DNA of 52,384 bases. Source: an uncultured Acidimicrobiaceae bacterium. GTDB taxonomy: Bacteria > Actinomycetota > Acidimicrobiia > Acidimicrobiales > Aldehydirespiratoraceae. The notes below the pieces were generated by a model. It was not told where the DNA came from. It saw nothing but the letters and a program-made list of their open reading frames with translations, and did no database searches. Where the stretch lies: contig CAJWHS010000008.1 in the NCBI GenBank assembly GCA_913041415.1, positions 1 through 52,384 on the forward strand. The letters are read 5' to 3'. This document shows positions 789-2,882 of this stretch, piece by piece; position 1 is the stretch's first letter; each line of letters opens with the position of its first letter. Made by a program: the position numbers and the translations under genes.

Positions 789-819
789 ACGGCCCGCTCC
801 TCGATCGAGAGCGGGCCGT
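789..819 (+). terminator. Hairpin terminator after the PII gene
   Basis: A perfect 11-bp stem, ACGGCCCGCTC (789-799) pairing with 809-819, with a 9-base loop. There is no T run after it, as is common in high-GC actinobacteria. It separates the PII gene from the CoA ligase. Confidence 0.7.
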
Positions 820-926
820 TGCCGATGGGGCCGACGATGCTCGCGCCCCCACAGACAAGTTGTTTGCGTGGTTCGGCTCGCTCGCTACCGGTTCGCTACG
901 GTGCCCCTCGACACAGGGGGTCTCGC

Positions 927-2489
927 ATGTCCGCACCGATTCTCGACGCCACGTCGTTCTGGGGGTTGCTCACCGCACGCCACGAGTCGTCGCCCGATCA
1001 TCCGTTGCTCATTGACGATTCCGGTCGGTCGCTGACCGTCGCCGAGTTCGTCACTGAGGTCGAGCAGGTCGCCGCCGGTTTCCACGCCGTGGGCATCCGA
1101 GAGGGCACACCGGTCACGTGGGTGCTGCCGACCCGGATGGAGACGATCCTCTCGAGCTTCGCCCTCAGCCGACTCGGCGCGATTCAGAACCCGATCATCC
1201 ACATCTACCGTCACCGTGAAGTCGGCTTCTGCATCAAGCAGACCAGTGCTGAGTTCGTGCTGCACCCCGGCGACTGGGGCGGTTTCGACTACGGCTCGAT
1301 GGTCACCCAGGTGACGTCGGATCTCGACACGCCACCGACGCTCATCAACGGCTACGAAAACCTGCCGATCGGCGACCCTGGAATGCTGCCACCTGCGCCG
1401 GAGTACCCGGCCAGCGAAGCACCTGTCCGCTGGCGCTACTACACATCGGGCACAACATCGGATCCCAAGGGTGTGCTCCACACCGACCAGACACTCATCG
1501 CCGCCGGCACCGGCCTCGGCAAGGCGCTCGAGGTCACCAGCGACGACGTCGGTTCGATGGCCTTCCCGTATGCCCATATCGGCGGTCCCGACTACATCGT
1601 CATGATGTTGGCCTTCGGGCTTCCGGCCGTATTGATCGAGAAGTTTACGCCCGGCGGAGCAGTGGCCGCCTTTGACGAACACGGTGTCACCATGGCGGGT
1701 GGCTCGACCGCGTTCTACCAAATGTTCCTCGCTGAGGATCAGAAGGTCGACGGCAAGGTCATGCCTGCGTTGCGACTCATGGCGGGTGGCGGTGCGCCGA
1801 AGCCTCCCGAGGTCTACTACGCCGTGAAGGAGGGCATGGGGTTGCCCATCGTGCACGGCTACGGCATGACCGAGTGCCCGATGATCTGCAACGGTTCGCC
1901 ATCCGACAGCGACGACCAACTCGCAAACACCGAGGGCGCGCCGATCGAGGGCTGTGCGGTCTCCATCGTCGACCCCGAGACCGGCGAACTCGCCGGGCCG
2001 GGCGCAGAAGGCGAGGTGCGCGTCGCCGGACCAATGCTCTTCAAGGGCTACACTGACCCGTCGCTCGAAGCGGGCGCCTTCGACGAGCAGGGCCGCTTTC
2101 GCACCGGCGATCTCGGTGTGATGCACGAAGACGGCCACGTCACCCTCACCGGTCGGCTCAAGGACATAATCATCCGCAAGGGCGAGAATATCTCTGCAGC
2201 GGAGATCGAGAACGTGCTGTACGAGCTACCTCAGGTCGGGAACGCCGCCGTCATCGGACTGCCGGATCCCGACCGCGGCGAGCGAGTCTGCGCGGTGGTC
2301 GAGACCGCTCCCGATCAGCCCGATCTGACCTTCGACGAGTTGGTCGCCGCTTGCAAGGCCGCCGGCTTGATGACCCAGAAAATTCCCGAGCAGCTCGTGA
2401 TCCACGGTGAGGCGCTGCCGCGCAACGCCACGATGAAGATCCTCAAGTTCGAGCTGTGCGATAAGTACGCCGAGCTTCCGTGGCCCTAG
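927..2489 (+). CDS. AMP-forming acyl-CoA synthetase (class I adenylate-forming enzyme)
   Basis: 520 residues. It activates a carboxylic acid with ATP and CoA. Visible motifs in order: the phosphate-binding loop YYTSGTTSDPKGVLH, the adenine motif GYGMTECPM, the hinge and ATP-binding stretch FRTGDLGVMHEDGHVTLTGR followed by KDIIIRKGENIS, and the C-terminal lysine region PRNATMKILK. The start is set at MSAPILDATSF, preceded by GGGGG and a TACGGT box about 25 bases upstream; upstream in-frame codons look non-coding. Neighbours (LLM oxidoreductase, DUF35 protein, thiolase-like proteins) suggest fatty-acid, sterol or cyclic-acid breakdown. The acid substrate cannot be read; cyclohexanecarboxylate-type ligases are among the closest-looking families. 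Confidence 0.88.
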   Translation: MSAPILDATSFWGLLTARHESSPDHPLLIDDSGRSLTVAEFVTEVEQVAAGFHAVGIREGTPVTWVLPTRMETILSSFALSRLGAIQNPIIHIYRHREVGFCIKQTSAEFVLHPGDWGGFDYGSMVTQVTSDLDTPPTLINGYENLPIGDPGMLPPAPEYPASEAPVRWRYYTSGTTSDPKGVLHTDQTLIAAGTGLGKALEVTSDDVGSMAFPYAHIGGPDYIVMMLAFGLPAVLIEKFTPGGAVAAFDEHGVTMAGGSTAFYQMFLAEDQKVDGKVMPALRLMAGGGAPKPPEVYYAVKEGMGLPIVHGYGMTECPMICNGSPSDSDDQLANTEGAPIEGCAVSIVDPETGELAGPGAEGEVRVAGPMLFKGYTDPSLEAGAFDEQGRFRTGDLGVMHEDGHVTLTGRLKDIIIRKGENISAAEIENVLYELPQVGNAAVIGLPDPDRGERVCAVVETAPDQPDLTFDELVAACKAAGLMTQKIPEQLVIHGEALPRNATMKILKFELCDKYAELPWP

Positions 2490-2500
2490 TGGAGGCTGGC

Positions 2501-2513
2501 TAGAGTCGCCACC
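2501..2513 (+). promoter_or_regulatory. Leaderless-type promoter of the ArsC-like gene
   Basis: TAGAGT (2501-2506) followed by 7 bases and then the ATG at 2514. Transcription from this -10 would begin at or next to the start codon. A GGAGG at 2491-2495 is too far away (18 bases) to act as a normal ribosome site, which fits leaderless initiation. Confidence 0.5.
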
Positions 2514-2882
2514 ATGACCGCGATCTACCACAACCCCAATTGACAGTCGTCCAAGAACGCCGTGGCGGTCGCCACGGAGATGGGCGTCGAGTTCGAAGAG
2601 ATCCGTTACACGAAGAACCCACCGGATGAGGCGGCCCTTCGTGACCTGATCGCCAAGCTCGAGGACCCGGTCGAAAACCTTGTCCGCAAGGACGCCCAGT
2701 TCAAAAAGCTCGAACTCGTTGAGGACGACTACATCGGCAACGCCGACAAGGTCGTCGAGGTGCTGGTCGCTCACCCGAAGCTTCTGCAGCGGCCGGTGAT
2801 CGTCACAGCCGACAAGGCCATCATCGGTCGTCCGCTGGGCGACCAGAAGGCCAAGGAACGGCTCAACGACATGTTCAGCTGA
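2514..2882 (+). CDS. ArsC/Spx-family thioredoxin-fold reductase, probable selenoprotein (in-frame TGA at 2541-2543)
   Basis: Read through one TGA, the frame gives 122 residues with the layout of ArsC arsenate reductases: MTAIYHNPN, then TGA, then QSSKNAV. The TGA sits exactly where ArsC has its catalytic cysteine (IYHNPxC), so it should encode selenocysteine at residue 10. Downstream family positions are kept: NLVRKD (the Arg60 region of plasmid ArsC) and LQRPVIV with IGRP (the Arg94/Arg107 region). The reading frame, codon use and length are intact on both sides of the TGA, unlike a decayed gene. A perfect hairpin at 2560-2577 fits a bacterial SECIS. The likely role is reduction of arsenate or another thiol/selenol redox substrate; no ars operon is next to it. 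A simple nonsense mutation (TGC to TGA) is the alternative. Confidence 0.8.
2560..2577 (+). promoter_or_regulatory. Bacterial SECIS-like hairpin
   Basis: CCGTGGC (2560-2566), loop GGTC (2567-2570), GCCACGG (2571-2577): a perfect 7-bp stem with a 4-base loop beginning with G. The loop starts 23 bases after the TGA, inside the roughly 16-37 base window known for bSECIS elements, and the loop G agrees with the known need for a guanine early in the apical loop. It lies within the coding sequence, as bacterial SECIS elements do. Recognition by SelB is inferred; selA/selB/selC are not in the window. Confidence 0.68.

Follow-up and report, generated by a model that had tools for sequence, protein, structure and literature searches.

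Within the window, by which we mean the whole stretch of 52,384 nucleotides that was analysed, a reading frame runs from ATG 2514 to a final TGA at 2880-2882 and contains one other in-frame stop, a TGA at codon 10. We consider that this internal TGA is very probably read as selenocysteine (Sec, U), the rare 21st amino acid, at the active site of an arsenate-reductase-like (ArsC-like) enzyme; standard gene calling would truncate a gene of this form. The features of the locus are as follows.

819-2489, forward strand: acyl-CoA ligase (AMP-binding), the upstream neighbour, given as context only
2501-2506, forward strand: TAGAGT, a -10-like box 7 nt 5' of the ATG, assigned by consensus match only
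2514-2882, forward strand: putative Sec-containing ArsC-like gene (Pfam ArsC), 122 residues with U10 in a UxxS motif, open but for codon 10
2538-2540, forward strand: AAT codon preceding the TGA, which supplies the U 5' of UGA
2541-2543, forward strand: in-frame TGA (UGA), the proposed Sec codon, at the catalytic position
2560-2577, forward strand: predicted SECIS hairpin, stem 2560-2566 / 2571-2577 with apical loop GGUC at 2567-2570, supported by covariation, synonymous constraint and folding energy

With the TGA codon read as Cys, the translation matches Pfam ArsC (PF03960) at 7e-16, with 58.7 bits against a cut-off of 24, and the frame is otherwise open; an earlier reading of the sequence without database searches (the sequence-only reading) was thus correct in describing it as ArsC-like on either side of a single TGA. 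It was also correct in placing that TGA exactly at the codon for the catalytic Cys, because a search against solved chains aligns residue 10 with the catalytic Cys12 of E. coli ArsC. Its further argument, that a random stop would be unlikely to hit that one codon, carries little weight by itself: the open reading frame contains no sense codon one base away from TGA, and a TGA could therefore hardly have arisen in a single step except at a Cys codon. Judging from the aligned genes, it is conservation over dozens of genomes that rules out chance, and not the position of the TGA alone.

The hairpin, CCGTGGC-GGTC-GCCACGG, lies where it had been described, with its stem 16 nt and its loop 23 nt past the TGA. 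The limits for bSECIS elements are a loop of 3-9 nt, a stem of 4-16 bp, a G in loop position 1 or 2, a UGA-to-loop distance of 16-37 nt and a minimum free energy (MFE) of at most -7.5 kcal/mol (PMC13188914), and the hairpin falls within all of them (4-nt GGUC loop, 7 bp, 23 nt, -12.8 kcal/mol). Its earlier use as evidence for a SECIS holds in this respect but not as an argument standing by itself: of arbitrary codons taken from the window's other genes, 7.8% are followed at SECIS distance by a stem of at least 7 bp whose loop bears a G, and the hairpin alone therefore proves little. Because the hairpin and the TGA position were each weak in isolation, comparative evidence had to decide.

On its sequence, the region upstream of the ATG is compatible with an mRNA that has no leader or almost none. 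The 12 closest homologues have a TANNNT box 7-10 nt 5' of the ATG, and the GGAGG at 2491-2495 is too distant from the ATG for normal initiation. The true start might instead lie after the TGA, at GTG 2562, leaving the upstream codons untranslated and giving a protein of 106 aa; this start is indeed listed among the standard-code ORFs. We rejected it as highly unlikely, since the residues encoded before the TGA (I/V-Y/F-H-N) are conserved while their codons differ chiefly in the third base, and since the 106-aa form would have neither the first strand nor the catalytic loop. The genes neighbouring the locus include those for a P-II protein, the acyl-CoA ligase, a luciferase-like monooxygenase and thiolase-type enzymes. 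As a separate observation on gene order, an acyl-CoA ligase lies directly 5' on the same strand at 26 of the 46 loci that share the hairpin type of the window (class 1, below), and in no other group.

The window belongs to a metagenome-assembled genome (MAG) of the Acidimicrobiia, 2.68 Mb in 143 contigs and 97% complete. The sequence-only reading had held that a selenoprotein here should be accompanied by selA, selB, selC and selD, and all are found: selA, selB, selD and tRNA-Sec each score above curated cut-offs, selB adjoins selA on contig C57, and the tRNA-Sec has TCA at the anticodon position (checked by eye). The selD gene (L018, G000:C18:10-834), which is cut by a contig end, has an in-frame TGA of its own, at the U of the motif SHGAGUGCKL; downstream of it lies a hairpin whose loop contains GGTCG.

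We compared the gene across two sets of genomes. The first comprised 61 genomes, the window's own and 60 relatives, of which 40 have the TGA form: all nine of the genus, 35 of the 37 of the family and five belonging to different families within the order. In each of the 40, selA scores above the cut-off. The second was an even sample of the class, 296 genomes with homologues accepted at E up to 1e-20, in which 32 genomes carry TGA forms and 33 carry Cys forms. There selA is present in 32 of 32 TGA genomes versus 12 of 33 Cys genomes (Fisher p = 8e-9, with shared ancestry ignored). When the catalytic codon was read in the DNA of 90 homologues, 66 proved to have TGA there and the other 24 a Cys codon (TGC or TGT), so that the expected alternation of Cys and TGA among relatives does occur, and at the same codon. 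Named records at 92-96% protein identity come from MAGs of Acidimicrobiaceae or Acidimicrobiales. One TGA form lies outside the class, in the same phylum, and a scan of viral contigs turned up no relative.

The alignments indicate that the hairpin is under selection. In class 1 (45 sequences) pairing holds in 99.0% of the cells of the stem, and compensatory changes occur at three pairs, with 15 two-sided cells versus 2.8 in shuffles, while slid controls collapse; RNAalifold recovers the same hairpin unaided. Third-base entropy at four-fold sites is 0.18 bits in the hairpin codons versus 1.46 elsewhere, without overlap. The Cys homologues offer one comparable site, which shows normal variation.

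A second class of hairpin, CAAUGC-CGUGM-GCAUUG, occupies nearly the same place in 13 orthologues, mostly from another family of the order (L094, L097-L105, L057, L060 and L107). Its stem is almost invariant in these 13 genes, and covariation hence has nothing to act on; the minimal hairpin, at -5.0 kcal/mol, misses the bSECIS limit. Seven more TGA genes have other candidate hairpins, and two of these (L061 and L114) again have GGUC in the loop. L061 (G032:C13:228975-229262) is a second, distant ArsC-like paralogue found in a related genome, with a TGA at the catalytic codon. The SECIS of E. coli fdhF has GGUC in its apical loop too, with a closer spacing and a shorter element.

These results bear directly on whether the gene is simply broken. 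A lone stop in a good frame resembles a fresh nonsense mutation, and TGC to TGA is a single step, so that one might suspect a pseudogene, or else a mistake in sequencing or assembly behind the TGA. However, this TGA is shared by dozens of genomes that were assembled separately, at protein identities of 45-96%, and the frame before and after it is undamaged; the selected hairpin, too, would have no place in such an account. No relative showed a frame-breaking change elsewhere in the gene, which is the kind of damage that had been named in advance as grounds for refuting the selenoprotein reading. We regard the pseudogene or error reading as refuted by the conservation of the TGA, with a residual chance that is close to nil.

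On a tree of the proteins, built after masking the catalytic column and having many weak forks, at least six changes between TGA and Cys are needed. The clearest case lies within a single genus. The homologue in genome G078 (L117, G078:C1:138369-138683) has TGC and is nested inside the class-2 TGA clade. Its congener G109 has the TGA form together with selA, selB and tRNA-Sec, and the hairpin of G109 is gone in G078. We found no selA in G078, and neither selB nor tRNA-Sec above the cut-off, in a draft that is 99% complete and in which absence is never certain. The combination of TGC, lost Sec genes and lost hairpin is what reversion would be expected to leave once the Sec trait had been lost, and G078 is thus an apparent case of Sec-to-Cys reversal coupled to that loss. 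It would amount to a natural experiment in which Sec genes were lost, TGA became TGC and the hairpin disappeared.

The same comparisons speak to a selenium-free decoding of the codon. UGA read-through is known in bacteria, and another tRNA, for Trp or Cys for example, might in principle read codon 10. Under ordinary read-through, however, it would be hard to see the TGA form confined to genomes with selA, TGC in the nested genome without Sec genes, and a SECIS-like hairpin that covaries. We therefore rejected this explanation, to which we give only a very small probability.

Taken with the position of the codon, the evidence from the sel genes, from the alternation of Cys and TGA, and from the hairpin, in both its fit to the bSECIS limits and its covariation, supports the selenoprotein reading first made from the sequence alone. 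We put at about 0.95 the probability that the product of 2514-2882 is a selenoprotein belonging to the known ArsC (UxxS) family, with Sec inserted at codon 10 through SelB and the GGUC hairpin. In the proposed mechanism, SelB carrying Sec-tRNA-Sec would bind the GGUC-loop hairpin 23 nt past the UGA, and selenocysteine would enter at codon 10. That this insertion actually takes place is what we infer from the genes and their conservation.

The base immediately 5' of the UGA may belong to the signal as well. Of the 59 genes of class 1 and class 2, the two main hairpin classes, 58 have CAT or AAT as the codon preceding the TGA, so that this base is U in all 58; among the other His and Asn codons of these genes, 335 end in C and 74 in T. 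At the SelD loci (L018 and L132-L143), all 12 Sec-SelD genes read have GGT before the TGA, although Gly is more commonly encoded by GGC. The remaining seven TGA genes are mixed, with T before the TGA in four. These counts are inflated by relatedness, yet the gene's other synonymous sites show free variation. We suggest tentatively, and with somewhat more doubt than belief, that the Sec signal of Acidimicrobiia includes an extra element 5' of the codon, the U that two unrelated selenoproteins both keep, and that the ArsC family has switched hairpins around the same Sec codon. If so, the two-hairpin switch would make SECIS turnover testable inside one orthologous family, and the well-populated alignments allow tests of SECIS requirements, including that of the base before the UGA.

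At the protein level, an AlphaFold2 model built from 16 sequences (the window protein and its relatives) has a mean pLDDT of 82. Its best PDB matches are arsenate reductases, with a TM score of 0.73-0.77 to E. coli ArsC (normalised to query length). Three arginines, R58, R93 and R106, correspond to R60, R94 and R107 of E. coli ArsC and are retained in essentially all homologues. The motif at the Sec site is U10-Q-S-S13, and the protein contains no Cys at all. Assignment to an ArsC/Spx family, as originally proposed, is accordingly sustained for ArsC and not for Spx: the CxxC redox switch of Spx is absent, with UxxS in its place and no second Cys, which makes the protein ArsC-like and not Spx-like, and Spx models score at most 35 bits against cut-offs above 120.

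We propose that a selenolate would replace the catalytic Cys of ArsC-like reductases beside the three conserved arginines, and that this single selenol would be resolved by an external thiol or redoxin, on which the cycle of a protein without Cys must draw. Actinobacterial mycothiol and mycoredoxin are the obvious candidates for the external reductant. The substrate, we infer, is arsenate, another oxyanion or an oxidised thiol. Arsenate is plausible, and its role is uncertain because the protein, with Cys scored for U, reaches 90.6 bits on the NCBIfam model for glutaredoxin-linked arsenate reductase (TIGR00014), below the cut-off of 106.05, and because no ars genes adjoin 2514-2882. These same two facts, along with Spx structures that are nearly as near in fold, favour a selenoprotein with a different job, namely that of a thiol-disulfide reductase, a peroxide reductase or an ArsC-fold regulator. 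Such a role has nearly an even chance, falling just short of it, in view of the three ArsC arginines in essentially all homologues, the absence of CxxC and the nearest solved structures being arsenate reductases. That estimate concerns function only and does not enter into a sum with the other readings.

The window gene belongs to a kind of Sec-containing ArsC that is already known. As the sequence-only reading had said, such proteins were found in marine surveys: the reports give 14 UxxS sequences from the Sargasso Sea in 2005 (PMC1088965) and 77 from GOS in 2008 (PMC2398784), and reviews list the family as "arsenate reductase (ArsC) 1", UxxS, PF03960 (PMC9312934, PMC13188914). By those descriptions, the published family resembles the window gene in its catalytic Sec, UxxS motif, downstream bacterial SECIS and marine origin. 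UxxC, by contrast, characterises both the GOS "Arsenate reductase 2" (PMC2398784) and the Sec arsenate reductase-like family NF041106, which is also ArsC-like with Sec; the window protein is UxxS and Cys-free. E. coli ArsC (plasmid R773; PDB 1i9d, 1jzw), a glutaredoxin-linked arsenate reductase, shares the fold, the nucleophile position (C12 for U10), the arginines and the single catalytic residue, but has Cys for Sec at about 30% identity. Spx/MgsR belongs to the same fold superfamily; Spx has the CxxC switch, whereas the window protein has UxxS and lies far below the Spx cut-offs. Our literature search found no report linking Acidimicrobiia with Sec-ArsC, although one may exist. As far as these searches tell, what is new is the lineage of the host, the presence of two classes of hairpin, the reversal coupled to loss of the Sec genes, and the U that precedes the UGA. 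The published ArsC 1 accounts, in the portions available, consist of reads or single accessions and name no actinobacterial host; the comparison with them is by description, and to it the present analysis adds the host, its machinery, the covariation and the Cys reversal. The selenoprotein family, so far represented chiefly by reads from ocean metagenomes, is now tied to a definite actinobacterial class.
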